Positions 18,716-59,289 of a stretch of 64,000 nucleotides of DNA are shown here, piece after piece. This DNA is from Lunularia cruciata. Lineage: Eukaryota; Streptophyta; Marchantiopsida; Lunulariales; Lunulariaceae. The notes below the pieces were generated by a model that saw only the letters and a program-made list of their open reading frames with translations, ran no database searches and was not told where the DNA came from. Positions within the stretch are counted from its first letter, which is position 1; each line of letters opens with the position of its first letter. The stretch is taken from assembly GCA_948567375.1 (NCBI GenBank), contig OX419762.1, positions 2,982,001 to 3,046,000 on the forward strand, given 5' to 3'. A program made the position numbers and the translations under genes.

Positions 18716-18716
18716 A

Positions 18717-25899: not shown

Positions 25900-25900
25900 T

Positions 25901-25912
25901 TGGTATTAGAGC
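25901..25912 (+). other. Primer binding site of A4 (initiator tRNA-Met type)
   Basis: TGGTATTAGAGC directly after the LTR; one base from the usual iMet site. Confidence 0.85.
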
Positions 25913-27060: not shown

Positions 27061-27109
27061 AATGAAGAATGTTAGTAGGAGATTTTGAGCCGCCTATTGG
27101 GAGCTTGAT

Positions 27110-27480
27110 TAGTTCCAATGGGATTGAAGGCTGACCTATACAAGTTTACTTCATTTGCAAGGTACAATATCTAATCATGTAGGATTTTGGTTGATTCTAG
27201 AAGTTTAGAAAATTGCATGTCTATACAAGTAGCAAAGGAATTGGGTATTCCTTTCAAGCCAATGATTGGAAGTAGTTTGATGATGGCGGATGGTAGAAAA
27301 GGGTCTCCATTCCGCAACTCATATCCTGTTACCTTCAAGATTGGGAAGGAGTATTTGGAGTGTATGAGGTTTGTAGTGGCAACTCTTCACTATGATTTCA
27401 TTCTGGGCCTACCTTGGCTTGAACATCATAAGGTTCAATTTGATTGGACCCGATGACAAATTCAAGTACAAAATCAAGGT
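27110..27480 (+). pseudogene. Protease region of A4
   Basis: 27187-27456 matches the protease of A1: SLENCMSIQVAKELGIPFKP, a short glycine-rich block and the final [15 protein letters not shown] signature. Broken. Confidence 0.8.
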
Positions 27481-27534
27481 AGGAATTTTTTTATTAGGTT
27501 GTCTGGCACCTCTGAGTAAGACATCTAAGAATAG

Positions 27535-29150: not shown

Positions 29151-29229
29151 CTGATTTGAAGTCTCTTCCTCTCATCACGGTGGCAATTACAATGGTGTCA
29201 ATTGACCCCAAGGTCCATAACAAGTTTTG

Positions 29230-30660: not shown

Positions 30661-30697
30661 GGCGACAAGGACATCACCAACTAGCGGTGGGAGAATA

Positions 30698-31109
30698 TGT
30701 AACAATATGGAGTTTAGCGACATAGTTAGTAAGGCCAACAAAGTAAAGAATAATCTAACTTAACCTAGAATATTCTAGAAGCATCTAGGAAGCTTCCCAA
30801 CTAGTTAACTTGCGCCCCAAGCAGGTAGCTTCTAAAAGGAAGCTTCTAAAAGCTTCTAACTAGCTTAGCTTGCATGCCAAGTAGGCGGCTTCTAGAAGAA
30901 GCTTCTTGAGAAGCTTCCTAGTTAACTTGACTTGCACTCTAAGAAAGCAGCTCAAGGAAGCTTCTTGAGAAGCTGCTCAAGGGCTTTGTATGCTACCTAT
31001 AAATACCAAAGCCAAAGCTCATGCTAGGCATTTGGAGTTTTCCCTCATTCAAGTGTCCCAATGTGAGTTTTCATTCTCTTATTTCTCTCTATGGTCTTGG
31101 TCTTTTACA
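30698..31109 (+). repeat. 3' LTR of A4
   Basis: 412 bp, TGTAACAATATGG to TCTTTTACA, preceded by the purine tract 'agcggtgggagaata'. Confidence 0.93.
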
Positions 31110-31309
31110 TCTACTATGCATATATGCTCCCCAATCATGCCAGTGTCATTCCACACAAGTGTCACACCATTTGTAGTGTTGCATCTAGATTGCTCTAACA
31201 CAAGAGTTACAGTGATAGAAGTTAGAGTTATTTCAGTAGTTTCTCAAAGACTACTTTTAGACGATCAGATTTTGTGTTTGGGGTATTGACTTCATGGTGG
31301 GGCCCACCG
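31110..31309 (+). other. Unassigned DNA between A4 and repeat R copy 3
   Basis: The first ~30 bases ('ctactatgcatatatgctcc') resemble family B just after its HVSLL motif, so they probably belong to B2. The rest shows no recognisable motif. Confidence 0.45.
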
Positions 31310-32879: not shown

Positions 32880-33200
32880 TACTTGCGGTTGCGACTTGCA
32901 GTTGTAGTTGGTGGTTCTGGTTTGCTATTGCGGTTACTTTGTCTTGACAGAGTTTGCTGGGGATTCCAAAGGAGATAGCCTTGCAATATGCAATGGGTTT
33001 ACTCGGAGTGGTACTCAATATCACCCTATATCTCATGTCCCAGTGAGGGAGGAGATTGACTCTAAGTTGGAGTTCAACATAGGAGCTGATTCAGTTGAGA
33101 GTGCACTTGGTATGTCCACACTGTTGTTGTGGGACATGGATAAGATTTATGGGGCCTCCAAAGGCCCTAGGCGTTACTCTGGTAGAGGGGTACCATTGAG

Positions 33201-33932
33201 TTGGATGAATTCATCCAAGAGTTTGATAGTTGGTGTGATCTACAGCAGATGTGGAACCCGACCTTGTTCACACCCTTTATGGCATGGAAGGAGTTGTTTC
33301 AGCATCTAGAGGGTCCACCGATGGATGACTATCATGAGTTCAAGAGAGCTCATTTAGAGGAGATTGAGTTATGGAGACAATATTGGTCTCCAAACTATGT
33401 CTCTATCACTTCAGGTTTGGTGGCCAGGAGTAGATTGGCTATACCTCCGAGTTCTAGCTTGAGTAGTGTTGGTGGAGCTAGTGGAGGTGCACTAGCTGGA
33501 GATAGTGCTACTATGAGTGGAGGTACCGCTATAAGAGGTGGTGTGGTACCGGGGTTTAACCCCATGGTGGAGTTCTTCTTGTGTTTGAGGCAAGAGGTGG
33601 TGCAGACTGACAAGCTGAGGAGCTTGCAGGAGATCCAACAGGAGGCTGGAGAGAGCCTACGTGAGACATACACTCTCATGAGGCGGCTGATCAGTTTCAC
33701 TCAGGGAGTTATTGAGGCCCAGGCAGTCCAGTTTTGGTATAGGATATTGGACAAGGAGTTACGACATAGAGCTCATGATGCTAAGTTGTTGCATGCTACT
33801 TCGCCTACTTTGGCAATGGTTTTTGGTTTGGCTGAGCGTATTGAGCTCAACATGGTGGAGGAGAGAGTGGTGACATCTGGATTTGGTAGGGAGACCTCAT
33901 CCACGGCTGTGACTTCTTCTAGAGTGCAGTAG
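33201..33932 (+). CDS. gag-like protein of family D (243 codons open)
   Basis: The frame shows a gypsy gag-like layout. The N-terminal segment FIQEFDSWCDLQQMWNP / FMAWKELFQHLEGPP is followed by a glycine-serine-rich linker (about residues 85-115) and then a helical block QEIQQEAGESLRETYTLMRR ... VIEAQAVQFWYRILDKEL resembling the capsid C-terminal domain of retrotransposon gag (PF03732 type). No zinc knuckle follows. An overlapping frame at 32908-33309 may hold gag N-terminal sequence (GFTRSGTQYHPIS). It is a fossil fragment; the family call rests on motif impression only. Confidence 0.5.
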   Translation: MDEFIQEFDSWCDLQQMWNPTLFTPFMAWKELFQHLEGPPMDDYHEFKRAHLEEIELWRQYWSPNYVSITSGLVARSRLAIPPSSSLSSVGGASGGALAGDSATMSGGTAIRGGVVPGFNPMVEFFLCLRQEVVQTDKLRSLQEIQQEAGESLRETYTLMRRLISFTQGVIEAQAVQFWYRILDKELRHRAHDAKLLHATSPTLAMVFGLAERIELNMVEERVVTSGFGRETSSTAVTSSRVQ

Positions 33933-34059
33933 AGTGCACCATGCCCAGTTGGTTTTTGAGGTCATGATGTTTTTGAAGACCAAAGGGAGCTAGAATCATA
34001 TGTCCAAGAGAGGGATAATGTTCCAATAACCTAGAGTTTGTGAGCGTATGATAGCAAAG

Positions 34060-37000
34060 AAGTGTTGTAAGAAGAGCTCCTCACTTGCAGTGAGGAGTAT
34101 AGCTATTTGGAGATTAGATGTAGTTGCACAAATTGAAGTTTTGAGTAGAATTTGGATTACATTTCTAGCCTAGAACAAGAACTTGAGTTTTCCAAGGTTC
34201 ATGGCAAAGATAGTTGCAAACAATTGTGAGGATGGCTCCAAAGAAGTAGGGAAGAGAAGGAATCTAGCTTGATGGACAAAGTCGGATTGGAGGTTAGTCA
34301 TGGGAAAGGAAGCAAGGGATGTGGCCAGGGTCACCTTCTATTGGAAGGGTGAGGCTTTGAAAGAAACCATAGAAGTAAGAAATTCCTTTAGCGTTCCCCC
34401 TACCAACAATAGTTTCAAGGTGGATACCTATTAGGGCGGCCCAATAAGGCAAAGTATTAGTAAGGCTCTAATGGTGATGTTCAAACCTAAGAAAACCATG
34501 TACATGACAATGAATCAAGTAGTGTTCTTTCATCAAATGTTTGCAAGAAAAAAGGTGAATTGAGCATAGTGCTTTCACCCATGAACTAGAAAAAATGATT
34601 GTCAACTAGAAGATGGATATGCCGCCCCACTACTTTGTACCATTTGCAACACACATTTATTAGAGGTTAAACTTGCTTATGTTAGAGGAGAAATATAGAA
34701 TGGCTTTGAATTTCCATCCAGATCTACATTAGGAGGCGGATGCAAATGAACAATATTATATCCTATAAATTCAAGCAAGCAATGAACACTTTGCCAAGAT
34801 GGGCAAAAGAAGAATGTGGTAGTGATCCTTCCAAAAATGAAGAAGCAAATAGATTCAAAGAAGTGGTGTCACATGTTCAGCTACGGAAGACAAGAAGATT
34901 GAACCCAAGAGGCAAGGTAGCGGTGATGGACATATCTTTGGGAGCAGAATCTGAAGGTGAGATTGAGTCCAAGGGAGACAACTTAGAAGGGAAGAAGAAG
35001 AACTCACTTTGCAAACCAGAGAGTCAACCAAAAGTGAAGGTGAGCCTGAAGTCTAGCTGTTAATGGATGAAGTGGTTGCAAAAGAGGATGAGGAGTTCCA
35101 TGCAACAATTGATTGTTTGGAAGGAGGAAATGTCTCCTATTTGGAATTATCTATGGTGGAGATGGAAGAAGAGAGAGAAGAAGAACCAAAGGTGGTGGTC
35201 CAAAAGGGAGTAAGTTTGAGGAGAGGGATGCAGACTACAATTGTAGGTCCAAGTTGAGCCAAGGAAGAAGAAGAAAGCTCAGAAGAAATGACTTTGAAGG
35301 TGAGAAGATCATGACTTTGAGGTAAGGCACTAAAGGAGGATATGCTTATCAAAGCTGAGTATGAAGACCATGAGGATGAGAAGAAAGTGTTTGCTGAGGG
35401 AGGGTTTTTGTTGGTGATCATTTATCTTTTGTTATTGCAGCTGAAGAAGAAGAAAAAGGACAAGATATACAAAGATCATCCAAAGGTGATGAATGAGTTG
35501 CAGTTGATGAAGTATCTCAACAAAGAAGCTTGGAATTTGAAGGAGAAGTTAACCCAAAGAGAAGAAGAATTCAAAGAACTTTGGGTGGATGTAGTACTTT
35601 GGAAGAAGACTCTCAAGAACTTGCAAGAAATTTTTGAAAAGCGTGGGAAAGATCTTGACTATCAAGCCAAAGAATTGAAGAATCAGAAGGTAGCATTCAA
35701 GAAATTGAAAGAACAAAGTGGGTGAAGTGTGCATTGAAGTGATACACTCAAAATCCATTGTAGTAGTAATGGAGCAAGAGTTGGAAAGTTTAAGATTGAG
35801 TGCAGCGTAGAAAGATCAAGCATAGTAACATGAGTTAACAAGTAGAAATAGAGAGGAGGAAAGATTATGAGGTTTGGTAAGAAGTGTAGAAGGTCAGATT
35901 GCTCAATACGCAAAGGAGAAGAAGATGCTAATGGTTGAGTACAAAGATGAATTGGAGATGTATCATGAAGAGTTGAAGGTGGAAAGAACTCATAGGTATA
36001 CATTGAAATTGGTAGGAGAGATCATTGGGAGGCTGAAGGCAATGTTGAGTACAGAAGTTAAAGTGAAGTTTGAGGAATCCAGACTGCCCGAGTTAAACTT
36101 GTTGGTGCAAGAGACAAGGAACAGAAAGGTGAAGGACACTAAATTGAATGATATTTTGATTTGCTTGAGAGAGAGAGTAGAAAGAAAGATGTTAGAAGTA
36201 GGAGACAATGTGAGACTCAAATTAGATTTAGTTAGATCAGATTAAGATAAACTTTGGAGAAGTGAGGGTGGGAGTGCAAGTTTCTTTGTGTGAGTTACCT
36301 TAAGTCACTAAAGAAGTTAGATTAGAGAAGGAGAAGGTAGATAGTATAGTGATGATTTTGATTTCAGTTCAAACGGAAGAGGTGACAATAGAAGAAGTTG
36401 TAGTTGAACCCAAAGTAGAGGAAGCAATTGAAGGTAATTAGGTTTAGAAGCCAAAGTTAAGGTAGACATTGGATTGGATAAGTAACAATTTTGAGATCTA
36501 AAGTAGTAGATATGAACAAATGGAATGTCATTTTGGATCTACAAATTAGTAAAGTAGCTATTGAAATGGTATATAGTTAGATACTATCAAGTACTATGCC
36601 TTTTTAAAGGTATCATTTCTAGTGTTGTATTTTATTTAGTATTGTAATTCTGAAGTTGAGTAAAGCAAAGTGTTGTAACTCAATGCTCATCATTTTAGCT
36701 TAATTCCAAGTATAAATCATGTGTGTGTTTGTGATTGTTTGGAGAAGTTCAAAGTGCAAGTCTCAGTGTGTTAGATGTTGGATTCTATAGCTTTGATTTC
36801 CATTCTATGTGTTTAATCCTAAGTAGGGTACAATTGAGGCAATGCCTTGAAAAATCTGTGAGGAACCATAGTGTTGGTAGTATTCAACATTGGTGAGTGC
36901 AACCTTGGATTGATGCAAAGCAACTTTGATCAAGGAAGTTGTGCCTTTGAGTGGAAGGATGGAAGAAATTTTGAAGCAAAGTTGTTTTATGGTGAAGTAG

Positions 37001-37275
37001 CCTTCTTTAAGAAGAATTGTACCATCATAATCAATGTCAATTTGGAAAAGGATTTGAACAGTTATGATTATAAGCATTGTTAATTAGTAATGAGATTGTG
37101 ATCTAGTGCTTGTTACTCTCTTTATAGTGTGGTTACTACCCAAGAGACTAAAGACGCAATGAAGAAGAATTGTTTGTGACATTTTACTTTATATTTGACC
37201 ATTTTGACATGCATCTCTATGGGAACAAATGATTACTTACTGATTACCACAAAAGTGATACTTGTTTGTTGGCAC
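34060..37275 (+). repeat. 5' LTR of L1 (long, protein-coding LTR)
   Basis: About 3.2 kb collinear with the reverse complement of 41263-44465 in solo copy L2. The last kilobase aligns clearly: 'aagcaaagtgttgt', 'gtagtgttggtagtattcaa', 'gaggaaccatagtgttgg', ending 'gattaccacaaaagtgatac ... ttggcaca'. The first ~590 bp of the family LTR are not recognised here; family D sequence adjoins. A leader and gag follow directly, confirming the LTR role. Confidence 0.82.
34070..36245 (+). pseudogene. LTR-encoded coiled-coil protein region, L1 copy
   Basis: Blocks match the LTR-coded region of L2 and L3: an N-terminal globular piece (about 34100-34560, IWRLDVVAQIEVLSRIWITF; ALMVMFKPKKTMYMTMNQVV), an acidic middle (34740-35257) and lysine/glutamate-rich coiled-coil blocks (35342-35725, NKEAWNLKEKLTQREEEFKE; 35874-36245, KEKKMLMVEYKDELEMYHEE). 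I do not recognise the protein. It is more diverged than the L2 and L3 copies. Broken. Confidence 0.7.
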
Positions 37276-37817
37276 ATGATTTTTGGTGCTACCATGGATA
37301 CAAATCTTGGGAGTGGAAGAATACAAACCTGAATCTTAAGCTGATTTTCCAACCAATATGAATGTTTGCATCAAGAGAACAATGAGAAGAGAGGGCTTGT
37401 AGATAAAATTTGCACCATGAAGAAGAAGAATGCTAAAAGATCCAACTCACACAATGAAGAAGCTTCAAAGGAGTCATTTGATCTACAACTGATCATGAAG
37501 TTCAAGAAGCTTTGAAAGACCTTAAACAAGAGAAATGAAAAATCAGGTGGCAAGGTTACTTTACATCTCCTTATTCCAAGAAATAGAAAGACTCAAGCGG
37601 GCAGACATATTCATTATGACATAGTGCACAGACTTCCTCCAAAGTTTTGAAGGGAGCAAATTACTTAAAGACATTTATTCATGAGAAGACAATATGAGTT
37701 TTGACTGAAGAAGAGTGTCAATACATCTTACATATGATTCTTCAACTAGTTCAAAGGGATCTTAACACACAATTTGAAGATATTGGTTCTCTCTCCACCT
37801 TGGGTTGGAGTTGACAT
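37276..37817 (+). other. Leader of L1
   Basis: The region just after the LTR holds 'tggtgctaccatgg' (about 37284-37297), a possible but unassigned primer binding site. A short asparagine/lysine-rich open stretch follows, but no known domain. Confidence 0.4.
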
Positions 37818-41262: not shown

Positions 41263-41933
41263 TGTGACAACCCGGCAAATATCACTTTTGCGGTAATCGG
41301 GTAAGTAAAGTTAGTTCCCGCAGAGATACAAGTCAGAAATATCCAAATACAAAGTCAAACAGTAACAGTTTAGTTCTTCTTGAGTTCTTCTTTAGTCTCT
41401 CAGGTAGAAACCACACCCAGAAGAGAGTAACAAGCACTGACTCGCAGTCTTGTCATAAATTAACACTCCATAATCACAACTCCATCAAATCTTTCCAAAC
41501 AATCTTGATTGTGATGATTCAGGCTCTCTCAAAAATGGCACTTCACTGCAAAACAACTTCGCCTCAGAATTGTGTTCCACCCCTCCGCTGAAGGCACAAC
41601 TTCCTCAATCAAAATTGCTTCACATCAACTTTGCACTGCACTCACAAATGCAAAATACTACCAACACTACAATTCCTCTCAGATCTGTCAAGATATTGTT
41701 TCGATTGCACTTCACTCAGGATCAAACACACAGAATGAAGATCAAGGCTGTGGAATCCAACATCCAACAAGCACACTGACTTGCACTTCAAATTTCTCCA
41801 CACACTCACAAACACAATTGTAAAGTTGATACTCGGAATCAAGCTCAAGCAACAAGCACTGCTTCACAACACTTTGCTTTATCTATTCTCAGAAATTATG
41901 AGCACTGAACAACAATTCTCTGTGAATGCCACT

Positions 41934-41941
41934 CTTAAATA
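41934..41941 (-). promoter_or_regulatory. TATA-like box 2, putative genomic-RNA promoter of family L
   Basis: The minus strand reads TATTTAAG about 680 bp before the LTR end, after the LTR-coded region. The same box is kept in L3 at 47613-47620 within 'cactatttaagagtg'. Its position suits an LTR promoter whose R-U5 would be about 640 bp. Inference from position and conservation only. Confidence 0.5.
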
Positions 41942-42057
41942 GTGAACAAATTGACAATTCTAACAACTATACCGTTCTACAACAACTCTTCTAACCTGCA
42001 GATCTGAAATGACAATGCACCTCTTCATATCCGCCTCTTCATGTCTCAAAACTATTA

Positions 42058-44629
42058 CTACTCCGATCCGATGTCTACTTCTTCTTTGGCTTTCAAACCT
42101 AAACCCAAAGTAAATTTACTTCCTAATGTTCTATCCTCGGGTTTCATATCTTCTATCTCTTCTACCAATTCTAGCAATTCTCTTTCCTGATCTGAAATTG
42201 CACTAGTGGGTAACCCTTCTAAATCTTCATCTCTCAACCCACTCTTATCTAAAGTCTCCATCGGTAATTCCAAAGACATTTGTACTCCTATGTTATCTAC
42301 TTCGGGTTTTGCTTTAACATCTTTCCAAAGTTTTTCTATCTCTATTTTCACTAAGTCTAATCTAATCGAAATGTTGTCTTCTACCTCTAAGATCTTCCTA
42401 TCTACACGAGTCCTGAGACTAATTAACAAGGCATTCATATCTGTTTCTTTTGCCTATCTTTGCCTTGTCTCCTGCACCAATAGCTTCAACTCGTGCAGCC
42501 TCGTCTCTTCAATCCAAATGTTGGCCTCTATACTTAGCATTGTGTTCATCCGGAGTACTATCTCCTTCAAAGGCTCCAATCTCATCTTATGCTCTTGTTC
42601 TCAAATTGCAAGCCAGTCCTCCTTGTACATTGCCAATTCCGCTTCAAACTCGGCTTTCACTGTCTCCTTCTCCTTCTCCTTCTCCTTCTGTACAACTCTC
42701 TCCTCCTGATTACGAAGTAACTCTTGTAATCTTTCTTCTTCCCTATACCGTGCTGCCAACTCTCTTTGCCAAAGTTGCTTCTTCTCCTCAACACTCTCCA
42801 TCACTCTATTGAGCTCTTGATCCTTTGCTGCTACTCTCACCATAGCATGGATAACCTCTACTCTTGAATCAACAAACTGCAGCTTCAAGATCTCGTACTC
42901 AGCTACTTGTCTCTCCCTTGCTATGTCACTCTTCTTCACAAGATCCTCTCGATAATGCACTTCTCTCTTCAGGTCTTCAATTACCTGACTTCTCACTATT
43001 GCCTCCGCTTGCAATACTTCTCTTTCCTCCTCACCTCGGGTTATACTCTTCTTCAACTCTGAGTTTTCTTCTTTGAGTCTTGCTAATACCTGCAACACAG
43101 TCTTCACCTCTGGACAAGTCGACTGCATCTCCTTTTTCCTATACTCTAGCTTTACCAACAGAGGACACACAACTTCTCGCAGGTACTCCACTCCATCACT
43201 CTCAACTACTTCAACCTGTGGAGTGATCTCCTTCTTTACCTCTTCTTCTCCCGATACTTGCCTTCTTCTCTGCAATCATTGTATTGGAATAGACGCCTTA
43301 CTTCCCGAGCTTTCATGTGCTTCTTCCTTCACCGTACTTGGACCTGCTCTGTACTTTTCCTTACGTCTCAAGCGAACTCCTCTCTACACTGCAATCTTTT
43401 TCTCTTCTACCTCAATTACTTTGTCTTCCAACTATGTGTTGTCCTCGGCTTCAATTTCTGCCTGCACTTCTTCTTCTGCAGTAGCTAGTGCCAATGTCAT
43501 TTCTCCTCCTTCATTGCTGTCGCTACTTGTATCTCCACTCTGTAGCGTTAGCTTGGGCTCCTCTTTGTGTTCCGAGTCTTTGGTCTTAAGCTTGGCATCA
43601 CCTTTAGAGTCTTCATCCTCCGACTCGATCACCACCATACCTCGCCTCGGGTTGCCTTTCCTGGTCTTCCGAGGTTTCTTTGTGTCTTTGACTTCACCCT
43701 ACCGACTTCTCTTCTTTGAGTTCGGAGTACTCACTTTGATCTCCACGTTCTTCCCTGTCTTCGTATAGTAGTCATCGGTGCTCCTGATTTGCAAACTGTA
43801 TTGCTGCTCCTCGACATTGACTTCCTTTCTCAAATCAGGATGGAAGTGCAACACCGTCCGAGTTTGCTCCACCGAGTTCAGCAAATTCAACCCGAGGTAG
43901 AAATGTGCTGCAAATGGCACAATGTAGTGTGGAGGTAATTTATCCTGCAGATTCCACACCATTTGTCTTGTTCTACCATGGAAACACCTCGCTCAATTAA
44001 TTGGTTCTCCTGCAAATAACTTGTGAAAGAACACCGCTTGGTGTTTCATCACATACATAGTTCTCTTTGGCTTTAGGATGGCCATCAATGCACTCACAAT
44101 TCCTCTCTTCATAGGGTCTTTGTAGCTCTCAACTTTGTACCCATTCTTCGTCTGCTTTGACGAGAATGCATCTCTCACCTCTTGAGTTTCTTGAGCTATC
44201 TCTCCCTTCCCCAAGAACATGGCCCCTTGCTCCGAGCCTGCTTCCTTCCCCAATACAAGTCTCCAATATGACTCTATCCAGCGAGCTAGATTTCCTCTCT
44301 TCCCTGCTTCCTTGGGTCCATCAAGACACTTGCTCTCGATGATTTTTGTCATGAAACCTGGAAAGCTCACATTCTAGTTCCATGCCAAGAAAGTGATCCA
44401 AAGTTGGCTCAAGACTTCAATCCTAGCGATCACATCTAACCTCCAAATCGCATGATTTCTCACTATGAATTTAGAGTTCTTCTTTCCTCCTCCCATCTCT
44501 TCAGCCTTCTCACTATCTCTCGATTTCACTCTTGAAACTTTTCCCTTACACACTAATGCGTTTCCGACTCTATTTCCCTTCCCACGATCACCTGCAAGAC
44601 GACTTCTCAACGGCAAAGGAAAATTGCTC
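42058..44629 (-). pseudogene. LTR-encoded globular plus coiled-coil protein region, L2 copy
   Basis: Blocks on the minus strand, in reading order: 44629-44374 (basic start MLSNFPLPLRSRLAGDRGKG, then IWRLDVIARIEVLSQLWITF); 44370-43993 (SALMAILKPKRTMYVMKHQA, FFHKLFAGEPIN); 43962-43699 (LPPHYIVPFAAHFYLGLNLL); 43638-43432 (acidic, serine-rich); 43275-42601 (long coiled coil, EEEVKKEITPQVEV to KEKETVKAEFEAELAMYKED); 42438-42058 (helical, acidic end). Similar blocks recur in L1 and L3, so the region belongs to the family LTR. I do not recognise it. The first third distantly recalls the 'putative plant transposon protein' domains of some gypsy elements. Broken. Confidence 0.75.
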
Positions 44630-44650
44630 AACATTTCTTTGTCGTGAGCT

Positions 44651-44664
44651 CGATTTTTATAGAG
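44651..44664 (-). promoter_or_regulatory. TATA-like box 1, ahead of the LTR-encoded gene
   Basis: The minus strand reads 'ctctataaaaatcg', about 25 bp before the conserved ATG near 44629. L3 keeps 'actataaaaattgg' at 55972-55985, the same distance from its ATG at 55955. The box lies about 390 bp into the LTR. Confidence 0.55.
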
Positions 44665-45049
44665 TTTCACTTTCTTCATCTTTCTTCACTTTGAGTTTCT
44701 ACCAAGAAATCACACCTCCCGCATGCACCTGTCACTGTCAATTAACCTTTGCGCGTATGGGCCGCCAGTTTTTGAACGGTCCCTTCTTGAATTTCTTGCC
44801 CCAACAAAAGGTTGTTAGACTGTCTTTGCCTTGGGTTGAGCTTCCCCCGATACAAAGACACCTTACTTTAGGTTGTATGCTGACAGGGCATTTCCGAGTA
44901 CTTTGCCTTATGACCCGAAGTCACTTCACTTCGGGTTTCATCCCAAAGACTCTTTTCTTCACCTTCTTCGGCCATACAGGCGCAATCCAACTTCTCTATA
45001 CACTTCTTCTTCTTTATTTTGAAAAAAACAAAAAAATGTGGGCACCACA

Positions 45050-46945: not shown

Positions 46946-47612
46946 TGTGACAACCGGGCAAATGTCACTTTTGCGGTAATCGGGTAAGTAAAGTTTGTTC
47001 CCGTAGAGATACAAATCAAAATTGGTCAAATATGAAGCAAAGTAACAGTTTAGTTCTTCTTGAGTTCTTCTTTATTCTCTCAGGTAGAAACCACACCCAG
47101 AAGAGAGCAACAAGCATTGATTCGTAGTCTTGTCATGAATTCACACTCCTTAATCACAACTCCTTCAATTCTTTCCAAACAATCTTGATTGTGATGATTC
47201 AGGCTCTCCCAAAAATGGCACTTCATTACAAAATTACTTTGCCTCAGAATTGTATTCCACCCCTCCACTAAAGGCACAACTTCCTTGATCAAAATTGCTT
47301 CACATCAACCTCGCACTGCACTCACAAATGCAGAATACTACCAACACTACAATTCCTCTCAGATCTGTCAAGGCATTGCTTCGATTGCACTTCACTTAGG
47401 ATCAAACACACAGAATGAAGATCAAGGCTGTGGAATCCAACATCCAACAAGCACATTGACTTGCACTTCAAATTTCTCCAAACACTCACAAACACAAACA
47501 CAAAGTTGATACTCAGAATCAAGCTCAAGCGATGAGCACTGCTTCATAGCACTTTGCTTTATCTATTCTCAGAATTATGAGCACTAAACAACATAATACT
47601 GCAAATGTCACT

Positions 47613-47620
47613 CTTAAATA
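47613..47620 (-). promoter_or_regulatory. TATA-like box 2 in L3 LTR
   Basis: TATTTAAG on the minus strand, the same position and context as 41934-41941 in L2. Confidence 0.5.
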
Positions 47621-47892
47621 GTGAAGCAATTGACAGTTCTAACAACTATACCATTCTACAACAATTCTTCTAACCTGTAGATCTGAAATGACAATGCACC
47701 TCTTCATATCTGCCCATTCAAATCTCAAAACTGTTACTAATCCGATCCGATGTCTACTTTGTCATCGGCTTTCAAACCCAAACCCGAAGTAAATTTACTT
47801 CCTACTACTCTGTCTTTGGGTTTCACAACTTCTAATTCTTCTATCAGATCCAGCAATTCTCTTTACTGATCCAAAATTCCACTAGTGGGTAA

Positions 47893-48318
47893 TGTAAAAG
47901 ACCAAATCTGAGGAGAGAAATAGGAGAGTGGAAACTCACATTGGGACACTTGAATGAGGGAAAACTCCAAATGCCTAGCATGAGCTTTGGCTTTGGTATT
48001 TATAGGTAGCATACAAGGCCCTTGAGAAGCTTCTCAAGAAGCTTCCTCAAGCCGCTTTCTTAGAGTGCAAGCCAAGTTAACTAGGAAGCTTCTCAACAAG
48101 CTTCCTTCTAGTAGCCGCCTACTTGGCATGCAAGCTAAGCTAGTTGGAAGCTTCTAGAAGCTTCCTTCTAGAAGCTACTTACTTGAGATGCAAGCTAAGC
48201 TAACCAGGAAGCTTCCCAAGAAGCTTCCTAGATGCTTCCGGAATATTCTAGACTACTTTGTCTTATGTGCTACTTCGTAAGCTCGACTAATTTTGTCGCT
48301 AAACTCCATATTGTTACA
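47893..48318 (-). repeat. 3' LTR of A5
   Basis: 426 bp, TGTAAAAGACC to ATTGTTACA on the plus strand. The heat-shock-like array 'ggaagcttctagaagcttcc' plus 'ttctagaagc' lies at 48146-48175. Confidence 0.95.
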
Positions 48319-49790
48319 TATTCCCCCACCGCTAGTTGGTGACGTCCTCGTTGCCAATGAAGCTTTGAATTCCTGGATGGCCGTCTGTGCATTCTGGAGG
48401 TAAGAAAGAGGCTCCTAGGTAGCATCATGAAGGGGATACCCTTTCCAAAGGACCTTGTACTCCGTATGTTGGCAACGGCCTCGTTGGATATGACGACGCG
48501 TAAGGATATGATCAACTTCGTACTCCTCATGATCATTGATAGGGACAGGAAGAGGGGGAGGTTGGACTCAAGAGGAAAAGGAAGAGGGATTAAGAACAAA
48601 GGGTTTCAACTTGGAAACATGAAAGACAGGATGGATTTGCATGTGACAAGGTAAGGCAAGTCGATAAGCAATAGGAAAGACAATTTGGGTGATATCAAAG
48701 GGTCCTATCCAGTTAGGGGCAAGTTTACGAACTTGGGTATCAAGTAGGAGAGGGAGGTAATTGGAGGATAGCATGACATTATCACCAACTTCAAAGGTGA
48801 GATCACGACAATGGTGGTCCGCATATTGTTTTTGGCAATTTTGAGCAACAAGGAGGTGAGACTTGGCTTGTTAGAGCGATTGGGATATAGTGGTCAAGAA
48901 TGTGGAAGTATGAGGAACTTGAGATGGAGGGGGAGCAAGAAGAGAATCTGGAACAAGCGGATCTTGGCCAAAATTGAGAAAGAAAGGAGAAAATCCGGTG
49001 CTTGCCTGTTCGGGATTGTTGTAGGCAAATTCTGCAACTGCAAGACATTCATCCCAATTGGTATGGTGGACATTGACAAAGGCCCGCAACATATCCTCCA
49101 ATGTACGATTTGCATGTTCGGTTTGTCCATCAATTTGAGGATGATAGGCCGTGGACAAAGCAAGCTTGGTGCCGAGTATCTGGAAGAGTGCTTGCTAAAA
49201 CTTCTTGGTAAATCAAGGATCACGGTCAGAGATGAGTACACGTGGCATCCCATGATGCTTGAAGACATTGTCGAAGTAGATTTGCGCTAAGGTTAGAGCA
49301 TCCACAATATCATAGGTTGGTGCCAAGTGGATTTGCTTACTAAGCTTATCCATAAACACCACGATTGCAGTGTATCCTTGTTTTATCTTTGGCAAGGATG
49401 TGATGAGATCCAAGCTCACATGCTCCCAGCGAGCGGATGGAACGGCGAGTGGTTGAAGGAGTCCACTTGGCTTCTAGTTACTGGCCTTGTTACATTGGCA
49501 GCTCTCACATGATGTGACAAATTCTTGAACATCTCGTGTCATGTTAGGCCACCACCATTGACGTTGGAGGGTACCCAAGGTCTTGTCCACACCCATGTGA
49601 CCAGCGATGGGTAAATCATGGGCTTCTTGAAGGCGCACAAGTCGAAGATCACCTTTGGCTGGAACATAGATCCGGTCCGCATGGAATAGAAGGCCTTCCT
49701 TGAAGGAGAAGGTGTTGTACTCCTTGTCACATGTTGTTAGACGACCATTTGGATGAAGGGATCTTGTTGTAGAGCTAACCAAAACTCTTT
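48319..49790 (-). pseudogene. Integrase and chromodomain of A5
   Basis: Reading order on the minus strand: HHCC domain (49782-49474, HDLPIAGHMGVDK ... CESCQCNKAS); core (49419-49213, LDLITSLPKIKQGYTAIVVF and FDNVFKHHGMPRVLISDRDP; 49158-48871, STAYHPQIDGQTEHANRTLE); C-terminal barrel (48774-48568, LAPNWIGPFDITQIV); chromodomain tail (about 48560-48330). This is the clearest integrase of family A in the window. Broken. Confidence 0.92.
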
Positions 49791-49799
49791 ATGGATCTT

Positions 49800-51180
49800 G
49801 GGGGCAATTGACACCATCATAATTGCTGCCGCAATGAGAGGAAAGGACTTCAAATCAGGTCGTCGTGATAGAGCATCGGGGATGACATGGAACCAACCTG
49901 GTTTGTACTCAAGTTTGATGTCAAACAATTGAAGTTGCTCTTCCCATCAATGATGTCGACTCTTCATGTGCTCCAAGTGTAAGGTCTACAACAATGGCTT
50001 GTGATCAGTTCGCATGATCACTTGTTTCCCCAAGAGATAATGCCTCCATACCTTGGTGGCATATACCATAGCAAGTTGTTCCCAATCTCTAGCAGAGTAA
50101 TTTCTTTCAGTTGTATTTAGGCAGCGAGACACAAAGGCAATGGGATATAGTCCATTTGGAAATTCTTGTTGCAACACAGCTCCAATTGCAAAGTTAGAAG
50201 CATCAAAATCAACCACACAAGGTAGTTGAGGATCATATGGTTGAATAATGGGTCTTGAAGACACCATATGTTTCAACTTCTGGAATGCTTCTTCATGTTT
50301 GGTGTTCCATTAGAAGCTTGAGTTCTTTCCCAAGAGGTCAGTCAATGGTGCAGCCACATGAGCATAATAGTGGATGAACCGCCGATAAAAACTGGCCAAT
50401 CCATTGAATGCCCGTACTTCTGTAGCATCCTTTGGGGTAGGCCAATCAGTTATGGCCTTGATCTTCTCTTCTTCCATCTTGATCTCCTCTGATGAGATCT
50501 TATGATCCAAGAAGGTAACCTCCTTTTGCCAAAAAGCACACTTTGACTTCTTGCAGTAAAATTTCCATTGTCGTAGTCGTCTTAGGACTTCTCGTATATG
50601 ATTCACGTGTTTTGCCTCTATCTTGCTATAGATTAAAATATCATCCAAGAACACCACCACTGACCAATCCAATAGTCAATCCAACACCCGATGCATTTGA
50701 TCCATGAAGACTATTGGAGCATTAGTGAGTCCGAAAGGTAAAACTCTCCACTCAAAATGTCTATACCTTGTGCGAAAGGCAGTTTTTTGCACATCCTCTC
50801 TATCAATTGGAATTTGCCAATAGCCACTACAAAGATCCAACTTGGAAAAGTAACGTGCTCCACTTAGTTGATCAAGTAAGTCATCGATCCAAGGCAAGGG
50901 ATATGCATTCTTCACAGTTTGCTTATTGAGCCCACGATAATCAATACAGAAATGAAGTCCTCCATCCTTCTTTGGAACAAATAGTACCGGTGCTCCCCAA
51001 GGAGAGGTACTATGTCATATGAAATCCCTCTCCAACAACTCTGTAAGTGTTGTTCGCAACTCCTCCAACTCCTTTGGTGAGAGCCAATAGATTAGTCTAC
51101 TCATTGGAGTACTCCCTGGCAATAACTCAATCTTGAAGGGCATACCTCGATCGGAGGGTAATCCCTTTGGCAGATCATCT
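49800..51180 (-). pseudogene. RT and RNase H of A5
   Basis: RT (about 51170-50310) has [44 protein letters not shown] and the catalytic VVVFLDDILIYSK (50672-50640). RNase H (50276-49800) has VVDFDASNFAIGAVLQQEF, NYSARDWEQLAMVYATKV and MRTDHKPLL. It matches A1. Broken. Confidence 0.92.
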
Positions 51181-51294
51181 GGAAACACATCTGCAAACTT
51201 CTAAACTATTCGATCAACCATTGCTTGATGCGGCACTTGGCCCTCCTCAGATTGTTCTTGTGCAATTGGCTTGATCCACACCACGAATACAGAC

Positions 51295-51906
51295 TTATCT
51301 TCCTCCAAAGCTTGCTCTATGATTGCTTCCTTTACAAACTTCTAGGGACTCATCTCTCTTCCAAGCTTGCTCCATGGTTGCCTTCCTGGCAAACTTCCCA
51401 TCTTGGGACTCATCTCCCTTCCAGATTTGCTCTATGGCTACCTTCTTGACAAACTTCCCATCTTGGGACTGACTATTCTTAGGTGTCTTACTCAAAGGTG
51501 CCAGACAACCTAATCAGAAATTCCTACCTTGGTGTTGTACTTGAATTTGGCGTCGGGTCCAATCAAATTGAACCTTATGACATTCAAGCCAAGGTAGACC
51601 TAGAATGATATCATAGTGTAGAGGTGCCACTACAAACCTCATACACTCCAAATACTCCTTCTCAATCTTGAAGGTAACAAGATGCAAGGTGCGGAATGCA
51701 AAACCCTTTCTACCATCTGCCAGCATCAAACTACTTCCAATCACTGGCTTGATAGGAATACCCAATTCCTTTGCTACTTGCATAAACATGCAATTCTTTG
51801 AACTTCCAGAATCAACCAAAATCCTACAACCCCTATCAGATATCATACCTTGCAAGTGAAGCAGACTTGCATAGGTCGAGCCTTCAATCTCATTGGAACT
51901 AATCAA
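51295..51906 (-). pseudogene. Protease and linker repeats of A5
   Basis: 51906-51514 encodes 130 open codons with ILVDSGSSKNCMF (retropepsin D-S-G-S near 51813-51803), VAKELGIPIKPVIG and [15 protein letters not shown]. 51495-51295 holds the SQDGKF-type linker units. The best-preserved protease of the family here. Confidence 0.9.
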
Positions 51907-51932
51907 GCTCCCAGCAGGCGGATTGAAATCTC

Positions 51933-52850
51933 CTATTGGGATTCCTTGCTTCCTTGATCATTCCGCTCCACAACCTCTACTTGGGCAACTTGTTGAGGTC
52001 GTCCATTCTTAAGTGGACATTCAGCAATGCGATGCCCCAACTGGCGACAATAAAAACAACCACCATTTTGTCGCAGTTTCTCCCTGTCTGCCATGCCCAG
52101 TGGTCTTTGTTGAATTGCATCAATCTCCATTGGTGTTGGCTCCTCCACTTGTGTGTAGTGTATTGGTAGGCTTTGTGGGGGTCGAGGTCAAGACCAAGTT
52201 GTTGCCACCAAGGAATCAAAACGTTTGGCCAACCGCATGGCTTCCTCCAAGTGTTGTGGCTCTTGCATGGTAACCTCTAATTTGGTTCTTGCCTTCAAGG
52301 CCTTCACAAATCGATCCAGAGCTTCACCTTCCAAAATATCTAGAATTTGCATGATAGGGTTTTGGAACTACGTGATGTAACTTCTTATAGAGCCAATCTG
52401 TTTCAACTCTGCCAACTTATCCCGTGCAGCTAATGTGGCATTTATAGCTTGGAACCGACTGATTATTGCGCTCTTGAATTCTGCCCATGTCAAGATTGGT
52501 GCAACCATTTGTTGTTTGGCTCGCTCCACTCGAAATCTCCACCATAGCTTTGCTACTCCATCCAATTGGCTAGAAGCCAAGAGAATCTATTTTCGCTCAT
52601 CTTGTAGATTGGTAACTTCAAAATAACGTTCACAATCAAACACAAAATTCTCCACTGCACATGGGAGATTCTTGCCTTCAAATACCTTGGGTTTAGGGAA
52701 TTTGATCCGATCTTCTCCTTCTCAAATTAGTACTCTCTCCACCTGCTCTTGTCGTTGAAGATCTTGTTCATCCAACAATTGAGTAAGGTGCTCGATTTGT
52801 TGTTGCATAGCAAGGATAACATCAGGTATTGCCTCCATGGTTGCTCCTCT
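51933..52850 (-). pseudogene. gag of A5
   Basis: Capsid blocks at 52580-52368 (VAPILTWAEFKSAIISRFQA, LAELKQIGSIRSYI) and a zinc knuckle C-F-Y-C-R-Q-L-G-H-R-I-A-E-C within 52148-51933 (about 52063-52019). The gag start lies near 52850. Broken. Confidence 0.88.
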
Positions 52851-53096
52851 ATCACACCACTCCCAATCTATCTGATTTATTAACACATAGAAATAGCACG
52901 TCCACCGTTCTCCATAAGTTACAACCAAAAGCACCAAGGGTTCCTTAGATATGGTAATCATATGCAGAAAATCTTGTCCAAAGTGCAAGGTGATGAACTG
53001 TGTGAAATGATGCTTGGGTAGTATTTGGACGTGAAAATCCCAATGGTTCGGTGGAAGTGGATTTGGTGGTCCATAAATTCCATCCATCCCATTCCT

Positions 53097-53108
53097 ACTC
53101 TGATACCA
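53097..53108 (-). other. Primer binding site of A5 (initiator tRNA-Met)
   Basis: The minus strand reads TGGTATCAGAG(T), one base outside the 5' LTR. Confidence 0.9.
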
Positions 53109-53109
53109 A

Positions 53110-53535
53110 TGTGAAAGACCGAATCCGAGGAGAGAAATAGGAGAATGGAAACTCACATTGGGACACTTGAATGAGGGAAAACTCTGAATGCCTAGCATGA
53201 GCTTTGGCTTTGGTATTTATAGGTAGCATACAAGGCCCTTGAGAAGCTTCTCAACAAGCTTCCTCAAGCCGCTTTCTTAGAGTGCAAGCCAAGTTAACTA
53301 GGAAGCTTCTCAACAAGCTTCCTTCTAGAAGCCGCCTACTTGGCGTGCAGGATAAGCTAGTTGGAAGCTTCTAGAAGCTTCCTTCTAGAAGCTACTTACT
53401 TAAGGTGCAAGCTAAGCTAACCGGGAAGCTTCCCAAGAAGCTTCCTAGATACTTCCGGAATATTCTAGGCTACTTTGTCTTATGTGCTACTTCGTAAGCT
53501 CGACTAACTTTGTCGCTACACTCCATATTGTTACA
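53110..53535 (-). repeat. 5' LTR of A5
   Basis: 426 bp, TGTGAAAGACC to ATTGTTACA on the plus strand, same length as the partner LTR. Confidence 0.95.
53213..53420 (-). promoter_or_regulatory. A5 LTR promoter: four-unit heat-shock-like element and TATA box
   Basis: 53364-53381 reads GAA-gc-TTC-ta-GAA-gc-TTC, four uninterrupted 5-bp alternating units, followed by a further TTC-ta-GAA at about 53384-53391. More GAAGCTTC pairs lie at about 53240-53320. TATA 'tatttata' read in reverse is at 53213-53220, so the array is upstream of it on the transcribed strand. This is the most complete array in the window. Confidence 0.65.
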
Positions 53536-55955
53536 AGTAATCTATCTAACTCCTTATCTCACAACCCACTCTTCTCTAATGTCTCTATTGCTAACTCCAA
53601 AGTCATTTGTACTCCTACTTTGTCTACTTTGGGTTTGGCTCTAACATCCTTCCAAATTTTGTCTATCTCCAACTTTACTAAGTCTAATCTAATTGCAATA
53701 TTATCTTCTACCTCTAATATCTTCCTATCTACACAAGTTCTTAGACTGATCAATCAAGCATTCAAATCTGTGTCTTTTTCCTTTCTTCGCCTTGTCTCCT
53801 GCACCAACAACGATCTGTGCAGCCTCGTCTCTTCAATCCGAACGCTGGCCTCTGTACTTAACATTGCGTTCATCCTGAGGACAATCTCCTTCAATGGCTC
53901 CTATTGCATCTTTCTTTCTTGCTCCCAATCTGCAAGCCAATCCTCTCTGTACATTGCCAACTCCGCTTCGAACTTGGCTTTCACTGTTTCTTTCTCCTTC
54001 TCCTTTTGTTCAATCTTCTCCTCTTGATTACAAAGTAACTCTTGTAATCTCTCTTCTTCCTTATATCTTACTGCCAACTCCCTTTGCCTTTGCTTCTTCT
54101 CTTCTACGCTCTCCATCACTCTATCAAGCTCTTGTTCCTTTGCTGCTACCTTCGCCATAGCATGGATAAGTTCAACTCTTGAATCAGCAAACTGCTGCTT
54201 CAAGATCTCATACTCTATTACTTGTCTCTCCCTCGCTATGTCACTCTTCTTAACAAGCTCCTCTCGATACATCACTTCTCTCTTCAAGTCTTTGATTACT
54301 TGAGTCTTCACTATTGCCTCTGCTCGCAGTACTTCACTTTCCTCCTCACCTCGGGTTATAATCTTCTTCAACTCCGAGTTCTCTTCTTCTAATCTCGATA
54401 ACACCGGCAAGACAATCTTCACTTTTGGACAAGTCGACTGCATTTCCTTCTTCCTATGCTCCAACTTCATCAGCAATGGGCACACAATCTCCCGCAGGTA
54501 GTCCACTCCATTACTCGCAACTATCTTCTCCTACGTTGCAATCTCCCTTCTTACTTCTTGTTTGCCCAATACTCACCTTCGTCTCTACCGTCTTTGTATC
54601 GGAATTGACGCCTCACTTCCTGAGCTTTCATTCACTTCTTCTTCCACCTTACTTGGCCCCACCTCACACTTCACCTTACATCTTGAACGGACTCCCCTCT
54701 GAATTGCAATCTTCTTCTCTTCGGGCTCAGGTATCTCATCCTCCAACTTTGTGTTATCTTTTGGCTTGAGCTCTACCTAGACTTCTTCTTCCTCCTCCGC
54801 AGCAGCTGGAACTGACATCATTCCTCCACCTTCATTGTTGTCGCTACTCGTATCTCCACTTTGTAGTGTTAGCTCTGGTTCCTCCTCACGTTCTGAGTCT
54901 TTGGACTTGCACTCGGCTTCACCTTCCGAGTCTTTGTCTTCTGACTTGATCACCACCATGCCTCACCTCGGGTTTCCTCTCCTGCTCTTTCAAGGTTTTG
55001 TCTTGTCTTCAGCTTCACCCTACTGACTTCACTTCTTTGACTTTGGAGCACTCGCTTCTATCTCTGCATTCTTCCCCATCTTCTTGTAGTACTAGTCCGT
55101 GCTTCGGATTTGAAGGATATATTGCTGCTCCTCTACATCGACTTCTCTTCTCAAGTCGGGATGGAAATGCGACACCATTCGATTTTGCTCCGCCGAGTTG
55201 AGCAAATTCAACCTGAGGTAAAAGTGTGCTACAAACGGCATGATGTAATGTGGAGGCGACTTATCCCACAGATTCCACACCATTTGTCACGTCCTTCCAT
55301 AGAAGCACCTCACCCAATTGATTGGTTCTCCTGCAAACAGTTTGTGAAAGAACACTGCTTGGTGTTTCATCACATATGTTGTTCTCTCCGGCTTGAGGAT
55401 GGCCATGAGAGCACTCATGATCCCTCTCTTCATTAGATCCTTGTAACTCTCAACCTTGTATTCATTCTTTGTCCGCTTTGAAGAGAATGCATCCCTCACT
55501 TCTTGATTTTCTTCTGCTACTTCTCCCTTACCCAAGAATGTGGCACCCTACTCTATGCATGCCTCTCTTCCGAGTACTAATCTCCAATCCGACTCTGTTC
55601 AGCAAGCCGGATTTCCTCTCTTCCCCTCTTCCTTGGGAGCATCGAGACACTTGATCTTGATGATCTCAGTCATGAAACCTGGAAAACTAACATTCTAGTT
55701 CCATGCCAAGAACGTAATCCAAAGTTGGCTCAAGACTTTGATTCTTGCGATTACGTCTAACCTCCAAATTGCATGATTCCTCACTGCAAATTTGGAGTTC
55801 TTCTTTCCTCCTCCCATCTCTCCTACTTTCTCATTGTCTCTCGGTCTTACTCTCTCAACTTCTCCCTTACACACTAGTGCATCTTCAATTCTATTTCCCT
55901 TCCCACAATCACGTGCAGGATGACTTCTCAATGGCAAAGGAAAATTACTTGACAT
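53536..55955 (-). pseudogene. LTR-encoded globular plus coiled-coil protein region, L3 copy
   Basis: Minus-strand blocks parallel to L2: 55955-55695 (start MSSNFPLPLRSHPARDCGKG, IWRLDVIARIKVLSQLWITF), 55535-55287 (SALMAILKPERTTYVMKHQA), 55283-55092 (MPFVAHFYLRLNLLNSAEQN), 54959-54777 (acidic), 54506-53901 (201 open codons of coiled coil, YREELVKKSDIARERQVIEY), 53753-53559 (ISLRTCVDRKILEVEDNIAI). The last part continues at 47892-47760 beyond A5. Similarity to L2 extends over every block, including the start codon. Broken. Confidence 0.75.
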
Positions 55956-55971
55956 TGCTTTGTTGTGAGCC

Positions 55972-55985
55972 CAATTTTTATAGTC
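55972..55985 (-). promoter_or_regulatory. TATA-like box 1 in L3 LTR
   Basis: The minus strand reads 'actataaaaattgg', just upstream of the ATG at 55955; conserved with 44651-44664. Confidence 0.55.
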
Positions 55986-56364
55986 GTGCTTTCTTTGTCT
56001 CTCTTCAATTCAAGTTTCTATTGAGAAATCACACCTCTTGCATGCGCCTGTCACTATCAATCGTACTTCATGCATATGGGCCGCCGGTTTTGAATGGTCC
56101 TTTCTTGAATTTCTCGCCCCAATGAAAGGTTGTTAGACTGACTTTGCCTTGGGTTGAGCTCCCCCCAATACAAAGACTCCTTACTTTGGGTAGTATGTTG
56201 ATAGGGCATTTCCGAGTTCTTCGCCTTATGACCCAAAGTCACTTTACTTCCGGTTTCATCCCGAAGACTCTTTTCTTTGCCTTCTTTGGCCATACAAGCG
56301 CAATCCAACTTCTCTATACACTTCTTCTTCTCTATTTTGAAAAAAACCAAAAATGTGGGCAACA

Positions 56365-56380
56365 TATACCCCCTTCCTCA
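56365..56380 (-). other. Polypurine tract of L3
   Basis: The minus strand reads 'gaggaagggggtata' directly before the LTR start TGTTGCCC. This places the unit at 46946-56364 as a true 3' LTR. Confidence 0.85.
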
Positions 56381-56470: not shown

Positions 56471-57634
56471 TCAAGTGGCAAAAGGATTACCCTCCAGGTC
56501 TACAAGCTGCATGGACCCATTTTCATAAAGATGAAGAACTAGATAGGGACCCATCCACCTCAAATGCAGCTTGCCTAGAAAAAATATTTGGCGATTGTCA
56601 TATAACAAAACCAAATCTCCTTCACGTACAGCCATAGGCTTGATATGCTTATCATGCCTGACTTTCCTCTGTGCTTGTACTTCCTTTCTGGTTTGCATTG
56701 CATCGTCTCTTTTCTCTTCTAACCACATCAGTTGATGAATCCAAAGATCTTGACTTTCTTCCTCCGACAATCATTCTTTGCAAAGAATCCGATATGTTGG
56801 TACTTCAAATTCAACTGGCAGTATGGGATGCAAGCCATATGTCAAGAAGTATGGAGTTTGTTTGGTTGTAATCCTTTTTGTCATTTGATATGCCCACAAC
56901 GTGGCTGGTAATTTTGTATCCCATTCATAGGCATAATTGACAGTCACCTTATTCAAAATTTTGCAAAGTAACCCATTCGCCTTTTCCGTTAAGCCATTTG
57001 CTTTTGGGTTATAAGGAGTCATCTTCTGATGTTTAATCTGAGAGTACTTGGTTAACGCCTCCATTATAGAGTTCAAAAAGTGTGTTCCTTGGTCACTGAC
57101 CAATTCTAGAGGACACCCATATTGGGAGATGATGTTTTGAAAGAAAATTTCCGCCACAGTTTCAACATCATCTCTATGAGTTGCTTCAGCTTTGACCATC
57201 TTGGTAGCATAGTCAGTGCAAACCAAAATGTATCGCTTTCTTGTGACTCGGGTCACTGGTTGAATGGGACCCACAAAATAAATCCCCCATTTCATAAATT
57301 GGGCCAAAGGCAAAATTGGTCTCAAAGGCCATTGAGAAGTAGCTATCGGCTTCCCCGTTCTTTGACAAGCATCACAGCTTTGGATATGAGCATGCACGTC
57401 TTTATACATTGTAGGCCACCAATACCCTACTGATAGAATTTTCTTTACAATATTCTTCAGAGCATAGTGTCCTCCCGATGCTTTGGAGTGTAAAGATTCA
57501 ATCACTCCTCCTACTTCGTATGACTCCAAGCATTGCCAAAGTACTTCGTCTTTGCCCATCTTGAATAAAATGTTGTGTTTGAGCTGGTACGGCCCCATTT
57601 TCCTGAGAAAGACTGCCCTCTGCTCCGGGTTCAT
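56471..57634 (-). pseudogene. Integrase of L3
   Basis: 57634-56771 (287 open codons) has the HHCC region (GGHYALKNIVKKILSVGYWW ... CDACQRTGKP), the core (VCTDYATKMVKAEA, LVSDQGTHFLNS, TPYNPKANGLTEKANGLL) and TTKQTPYFLTYGLHPILPVE. 56770-56471 holds the C-terminal SH3-like segment (VREGDLVLLYDNR, LHLRWMGPYLV). No chromodomain follows before the polypurine tract. The sequence is non-chromoviral gypsy. Confidence 0.9.
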
Positions 57635-57643
57635 CCCTTTTGG

Positions 57644-58476
57644 TCAATGGAGAGTATGCAGATAGTGATATTCTGCTGCATACCTTGTACTTGGCATTGC
57701 TGATAATTGATACAACTCTTCATCAGGGAACAGATTGTCAATTTCCCACTCTTGGTCTTGAGTTTCTAACCTAGACAGGAAGTCCGCATTCAAATGCAAA
57801 GCTCCCTTCCTTACTTGTATAGTATATGTGAATTCTTGTAACAACAAGATCCATCTTGCAATTTGCCCGAACAAATCTGCCTTCTTGACCAAATGTTGCA
57901 ATGCGTAATTGTCAACATAGAAGACAAACTCGTATCCCAATAGATAGTGGCGAAATTTCTTGCAAGCATACACCATTCCGAGTGCTTCTCTTTCAATCGT
58001 TGAATAATTCTTTTCAGAAACTGAAAGTTGTTGGTTGGCATAATACACCTGGTAGTCCTTCGTCTTTTTGTCCTTCTGACTTAAGACAACTCTGATGGCC
58101 ATGGACAAAGTGTCCACATATACATGAAAAGGGAAGTCCTAGTTTGGGGCCCTCATAATTGGTGCTTCAACCAGTTTCTTCTTCAACACTTGGAAAGCTT
58201 CTTCTTGATTTGCTTCCCACAAATAGTCTTTGGATTTCTTTAGAAGCTTTGTAAGTGGTGCAGCAAGCACCGCATAATTTGACACAAAGCGTCTATAGTA
58301 TCCGACATGTCCCAAGAAGGCTCTCAGCTCCCGGATGTTCTTCGGGGATTCCAAAGCTACTATTATCTTAACCTTCTCAACATCAACTTCAATACCTTGA
58401 CTTGACACCCAATGCCCCAGAAGAATTCCCTCCTTCATTGCGAAGAAGCATTTCTCCGGGTGTAATGACAAGCCGG
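57644..58476 (-). pseudogene. RT thumb and RNase H of L3
   Basis: 58476-58139: LHPEKCFFAMKEGILLGHWV, then ELRAFLGHVGYYRRFVSNYA and APLTKLLKKSKDYLW. 58117-57644: RNase H with NYSTIEREALGMVYACKKFR, FYVDNYALQHLV and GALHLNADFLSRLE. The RT is interrupted by G at 58477-61072. Confidence 0.9.
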
Positions 58477-58920
58477 TGTCGACGGGAAAATAGCCCACGT
58501 GTACCCTTGAGGCTTTTGGTGTGATGAATTTTCTTTTCTCTTTTATTTGTTGTAAGGAACAAGGATTTATGATAATATATCTTGGGTGTGGTTTTGCTAT
58601 CTTGTTTTGGGAGAAAGTGAGGAGACAGAGAAGGGCTGAGGGTTTTCACAAAATGCCAAAAGATTTCGAGAGGGTTTGGTAGAGGATTTCGAGAGGAGTG
58701 GCAGAAATTTTTGGGAGAAGAAAGGAGTAGGGTTTTTTTTGAAAAGGGACAGAGGAGTTTCGGGAGAGAAAGGGTTTTTTTTTTCGGGAATGACAGGAGG
58801 AGTTTGGGGGCAGAGGACAGAAGGTGGGCAGAAGGAAGTGAATCGAAAGGGACTGGAATGATCAGGAAGGAGTAGTCATGAAGGCTTTTTAGGGACAGAG
58901 GAAAAATCAGGAGAGGAAAT

Positions 58921-59200: not shown

Positions 59201-59289
59201 CAGGAGGGCTTGAGAGTGCAGGGGAGAAAATTTCTCGAGAACTGAAGGGTGGAAGAGGAACAATCAGGGCCAGGATTTTCGAGTTGGAC

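Follow-up and report, generated by a model that had tools for sequence, protein, structure and literature searches.

Can the long terminal repeat (LTR) of a plant retrotransposon carry a complete protein gene of its own? LTRs are commonly regarded as regulatory sequences, and age estimates from LTR divergence presume that they evolve neutrally. The question is raised by a 64,000-nucleotide stretch of the genome of the liverwort Lunularia cruciata (assembly GCA_948567375.1, contig OX419762.1), here called the window, which contains three copies of a long LTR-like unit. An earlier note proposed that this unit holds a gene in its U3 region, with a promoter for the gene and a separate promoter for the genomic RNA. 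As described below, a protein gene under selection does lie in the LTR; the two-promoter part of the proposal fits the anatomy of the unit, with boxes that occur singly and at aligned places in two copies.

Anatomy of the LTR copies

The unit occurs as the 5' LTR of one element (L1), as the 3' LTR of another (L3) and as a solo copy (L2); none of the elements has both of its LTRs within the window. The coordinates of the copies and their features are collected in Table 1. In its own sense L2 starts with TGTGGTGCCCACA and finishes with GGGTTGTCACA, and it is inserted in pol of the older element L1, where the reverse transcriptase (RT) was judged by eye. The perfect 5-bp duplication previously claimed for L2 is present, with TATGT on both sides. 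The L3 LTR begins at 56364, immediately past the purine run of 56369-56379 and downstream of integrase, while the L1 LTR ends at 37276 and is followed by a leader and gag, with TTTTTGGTGCTACC, a candidate tRNA primer site, a few bases past the end. The duplication and the TG..CA ends in L2, the polypurine tract (PPT) and integrase before L3, and the leader and gag after L1 together identify the unit as an LTR, and each of these observations agrees with the earlier note. Two further features of L3, RNase H located before integrase and a PPT directly before the 3' LTR, are those of Ty3/gypsy elements, as are the TG..CA ends and the short target duplication of L2. The protease and RT of the family may resemble those of Athila (Athila/Tat, OTA clade).

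Other repeats are also found in the window. By eye, at least four gypsy-like copies of ~5.6 kb with LTRs of ~0.4 kb were recognized (243-5858, 13523-19063, 25489-31110 and 47893-53536). Copies of this family are 76-90% alike, and one of them is nested in the L3 LTR, which it divides into two parts. Degenerate tandem repeats that are open in several minus-strand frames (58893-60678) interrupt L3 pol. Directly before the recognizable LTR of L1, an open frame on the plus strand (33186-33932), presumably gag-like, apparently belongs to another element.

Table 1. Features of the three LTR copies and of the reading frame in L2 (window positions)
Feature	Position	Strand	Remarks
Solo LTR, L2	41263..45049	-	3787 nt; TG..CA ends
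Target-site duplication, one side of L2	41258..41262		TATGT
Target-site duplication, other side of L2	45050..45054		TATGT
L3 LTR, 5' part (sense of the LTR)	53537..56364	-	holds most of the reading frame (53537-55817)
L3 LTR, remaining part	46946..47892	-	
PPT preceding L3 LTR	56369..56379	-	
L3 RNase H and integrase	56771..58138	-	Pfam RT_RNaseH 5.4e-27, Integrase_H2C2 1.2e-12, rve 2.5e-8
L1 5' LTR, recognizable part	34000..37276	+	frameshifted remains of the frame at 34063-36260
LTR-resident reading frame, L2	42058..44496	-	~812 codons and stop; 8 in-frame stops
N-terminal domain	43702..44496	-	best conserved part
Charged linker	43276..43701	-	partly acidic
Long helical part	42604..43275	-	coiled coil possible; AlphaFold2
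C-terminal part	42061..42603	-	first ~290 nt conserved in L1
Box 1, TATAAAAAT	44653..44661	-	contains the sole TATAAA of L2; aligned one in L3
Box 2, TATTTAAG	41934..41941	-	identical in L3
Possible poly(A)-signal-like AATAGATAAA	41878..41887	-	common to L2 and L3; function inferred

A reading frame inside the LTR

The sense strand of L2 contains a long reading frame that ends with a stop codon at 42060-42058 and makes up ~64% of the LTR (2439 of 3787 nt). Over 42058-44496 the 8 stops of this frame compare with 80 and 48 in the alternative sense frames and with 31, 15 and 28 in the antisense frames. In L3 the same frame has 16 stops in 752 aligned codons. Two stops, at sense positions 674 and 1349, are common to L2 and L3; the number expected by chance ranges from 0.4, if every codon a single change away from a stop is considered, to 2.8, if only transition-prone codons are. 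As two shared stops are thus near chance, neither stop read-through nor any other special reading is necessary. In L1 the frame is disrupted by stops and frameshifts, and an intact frame was found in none of the three copies in the window.

The earlier note held that coding blocks recur at the same positions in all three copies. Remains of the frame are indeed present in L1, L2 and L3, but L1 is recognizable only from ~34000, without box 1, and is frameshifted. Sense-strand coding within 42058-44496 is upheld by the scarcity of stops in the frame itself and by the codon-position and dN/dS tests that follow.

Purifying selection on the frame

L2 and L3 differ at 115, 87 and 228 first, second and third codon positions over 752 codon pairs. 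Nei-Gojobori estimates, from the 730 of these pairs that contain no stop (22 were left out), are dN 0.118 and dS 0.738, giving a dN/dS of 0.160 (bootstrap 0.129-0.202). None of 500 shuffles that kept the base changes gave a ratio this low, the minimum being 0.448. Over sense positions 422-2832 the other sense frames yield 0.835 and 1.15, and the antisense frames 0.331, 1.461 and 0.947; the value of 0.331 is accounted for by that frame facing the third positions of the coding frame. In the LTR flanks dN/dS ranges from 0.49 to 1.12. The power at period 3 is 29, 13 and 11 times the mean in the three thirds of the coding region, and 1.9 and 1.4 times in the flanks. Alignment gaps tell the same frame from its surroundings: of 11 gaps between L2 and L3, all four within 554-2832 are multiples of three, as against one of the six outside the frame. 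The remaining gap, 4 nt long and located at 2836, represents the target duplication of the nested element and coincides with its junction; it was therefore rejected as a break in the frame. Selection appears to fade at the 3' end, where the last ~50 codons show a dN/dS of 0.592 and a weak codon pattern. Conservation is also seen in the final 800 nt of the LTR, whose differences (19, 26 and 30 by position) show no codon pattern.

The ends of the L2 and L3 LTRs (sense 1-364 and 2990-3787) show ~0.09-0.12 differences per site, compared with the dS of 0.74 for the frame (554-2832). Strong constraint on these non-coding ends would be the simplest reading. Recombination was considered as a cause of flanks that diverge less than synonymous sites, and was rejected for lack of a sharp breakpoint in divergence.

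L1 extends the comparison, which the earlier note had proposed for LTR-coded blocks, to all three copies in the window. Between L1 and L2 the N-terminal domain has a dN/dS of 0.126 (170 of 177 codons; 100 shuffles at or above 0.416), the C-terminal stretch 2447-2740 one of 0.220 (shuffles at or above 0.347) and the whole of 560-2740 one of 0.253 (shuffles at or above 0.56). For 1400-1560 the ratio, 0.344, lies at the low end of the shuffle range (minimum 0.305), and for the helical stretch 1850-2138 it lies within that range (0.715; shuffle mean 0.829, minimum 0.293), so that selection there is not clear; 1091-1340 is saturated. Gag and pol of the same family served as a yardstick. Between L1 and L3, dN/dS is 0.178 for gag/NC, 0.131 for RNase H and 0.165 for integrase, all labelled from Pfam, and 0.159 for the protease region, which was labelled by eye and for which Pfam gave nothing above cut-off. 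RT, likewise recognized by eye, was excluded from this range as a frameshifted fifth piece (0.267 in frame, 1.459 out of frame). Purifying selection on the LTR frame was as strong as that on the gag and pol of its family.

Start of the protein and putative promoter elements

The distribution of L2-L3 differences changes within the 5' region of the LTR: codons 416-556 differ by 8, 9 and 10 at the three positions, and codons 557-700 by 2, 1 and 13. This shift places the start of the protein most likely at the second ATG, at 44496, rather than at the ATG 27 nt past the start of box 1. The ATG at 44496 is also present in L3; in L1 an in-frame ATG lies roughly three codons upstream of this place. 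The previously proposed start, a shared ATG ~25 bp after box 1, is probably wrong, as codon selection begins at 44496. The distance from the start of box 1 to this second ATG, 165 nt, is also more fitting for a TATA box.

A single TATAAA is found in L2 (position 389) and a single one in L3 (383), at aligned places, and the same holds for TATTTAA (3109 in L2, 3101 in L3). The comparison of box 1 covers L2 and L3, as the recognizable part of L1 stops short of it. Box 2 lies after the coding part, as had been described, ~120 nt past the stop codon and aligned between L2 and L3, but L1 has TTTTTAAAG there and not TATTTAAG. Scans for sigma-70 promoters and terminators, models unsuited to plants, gave 1 and 2 matches, not above shuffles, and a tRNA scan found none.

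The predicted protein

The N-terminal part, of ~265 residues, is 80% identical between L2 and L3 and 54% identical between L2 and the aligned part of L1. By tblastn of L2 against L1, identity is 53% over 182 positions in the N-terminal region, 28% over 387 in the middle and 45% over 180 in the C-terminal region. The earlier note described a globular part followed by an acidic part and a long coiled coil. A model of the proposed globular N-terminal part reached a pLDDT of only 31, with no usable fold. A 223-residue piece of the helical part, modelled by AlphaFold2 from a two-sequence alignment, reached a mean pLDDT of 81, with helices at residues 54-131 and 137-222 (78 and 86 residues). A long helical part is thus predicted, but a crude heptad count does not back a regular coiled coil, its best windows being matched by 33 and 35 of 300 shuffles.

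Profile searches of the separate blocks, which had also been proposed, gave no Pfam family above cut-off for the whole frame or for its pieces. The whole frame, with stops as X, matched no family at E up to 5. The N-terminal piece gave one match far under cut-off (Alpha_adaptin_C, 0.049), and four shorter pieces, three from L2 and one from L3, gave only sub-cut-off matches (EXOSC1, 0.53; Exo_endo_phos_3, 0.13; Rab11-FIP3, 0.37). None of the Pfam models for extra ORFs (eORFs) of plant elements (plant mobile domain, Transposase_28, Athila ORF-1) matched the frame. Nor were matches to it found at E up to 1 in the prokaryote library NCBIfam or among PDB sequences. An alignment-based (A1) search of viral and prokaryote genome contigs returned 136 and 43 pattern matches, none of which was confirmed, and plasmids gave no match by tblastn.

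A probable gene in U3 and its possible expression

We consider it likely that this Ty3/gypsy family carries a complete, selected accessory gene inside the U3 of its LTR. The frame was under selection, lies after the PPT, and is seen in one 5' LTR, one 3' LTR and one solo LTR. On the genomic RNA the gene would occupy the env position, in sense orientation after pol. We propose that plus-strand priming takes place at the purine tract upstream of the gene; because the PPT precedes the gene, the latter would lie in U3, and reverse transcription would copy it into both LTRs. Recombination between LTRs would then leave the gene whole in solo LTRs. The anatomy and the two boxes tilt us somewhat toward two promoters, box 1 for the gene and box 2 for the genomic RNA. 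From box 1, an mRNA would start near 44630 with a leader of ~135 nt, terminate translation at 42060 and acquire its poly(A) in R; the genomic RNA would start from box 2. The protein, with its conserved N-terminal domain, charged linker and helical part, may act in trans as an accessory factor, and the helical part may oligomerize. Its role is a guess: a regulatory or anti-silencing function for the element is a tentative suggestion, and a particle or transport factor is less likely still.

The chief rival to two promoters is a U3 gene that lacks its own promoter and depends for its translation on the 3' end of the genomic RNA or on a spliced form, as do sag- and env-type genes. If R begins past box 2, the genomic RNA would have the frame once, after pol, and splicing of an env-like message has been described for the plant element Bagy2 in the available text of a review of such ORFs (PMC7264820). 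We nevertheless consider this rather unlikely, given that L2 and L3 each have a lone TATAAA, at aligned places, 165 nt ahead of the conserved ATG in L2 and correspondingly in L3. Less probable again is box 1 as the sole promoter, in which case R would start there and the frame, now in R-U5, would precede gag as the first one on the genomic RNA. In favour of this, box 1 matches a TATA box better than box 2, which reads TTTTTAAAG in L1; but R would then be ~2.8 kb, with a frame of 812 codons and a long leader ahead of gag, and the last 800 nt of the LTR, conserved without a codon pattern, are as expected of R-U5.

Two further explanations were weighed. A host gene captured by a few copies could be suspected from the absence of any match to a known family, and the earlier note had named such a capture as a case against its proposal. 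The frame is, however, in all three LTR copies of the window, the N-terminal domains of L1 and L2 differ by 46%, and selection is at the level of gag and pol; we regard capture as very improbable. The strand is also strongly purine-rich, and its composition might by itself produce an open frame where there is no gene. That is the least credible of the explanations considered here, in view of the excess of third-position differences, the gaps in multiples of three and a dN/dS far under the shuffles and the other sense frames.

Comparison with known systems

The sag gene of the betaretrovirus MMTV is a protein gene on the sense strand of U3 and hence present in both LTRs. The gene described here resembles it in this location, to which the likeness drawn in the earlier note is limited: the element is a plant gypsy element, and the protein, of ~812 codons, has no match in the libraries searched. 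Among plant elements, gene23 of Grande is an accessory gene beside gag-pol with its own promoter, kept in most copies, and additional ORFs of plant LTR retrotransposons lie internally, for the most part between pol and the 3' LTR, with env-like ORFs placed after pol, according to the available portion of the same review (PMC7264820). The present gene is likewise an accessory gene beside gag-pol. As far as that text goes, it differs from gene23, which is antisense and internal, in being sense and within the LTR (PMC7264820). In OTA and SIRE elements, which are large non-chromovirus elements with LTRs of up to ~5 kb, eORFs flank the polyprotein region, in many cases downstream of it; the accessible part of that study groups them according to whether they precede or follow that region and describes none within an LTR (PMC6317226). 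RetroSat2, a gypsy element with LTRs of over 3.2 kb, has an extra ORF0, but this is upstream of gag-pol and, in the portion available, is treated apart from the LTR (PMC3485330). No conserved sense gene in the LTR of a plant element was found in the available text of the open-access papers searched (PMC7264820, PMC6317226, PMC3485330, PMC2633040, PMC10508981, PMC11963269).

Implications

Use of a PPT upstream of the gene suggests a simple route by which a gene in the env position may enter the LTR, and a stray, leftover LTR can then carry an entire gene. It is conceivable, if rather improbable, that every solo LTR works as an independent unit expressing a multimeric trans-acting factor, for example an anti-silencing one, so that leftovers serve live copies. 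As ~64% of the LTR is coding and was under purifying selection, solo LTRs of this family are potential genes, and LTR-based comparisons in such families may be biased.
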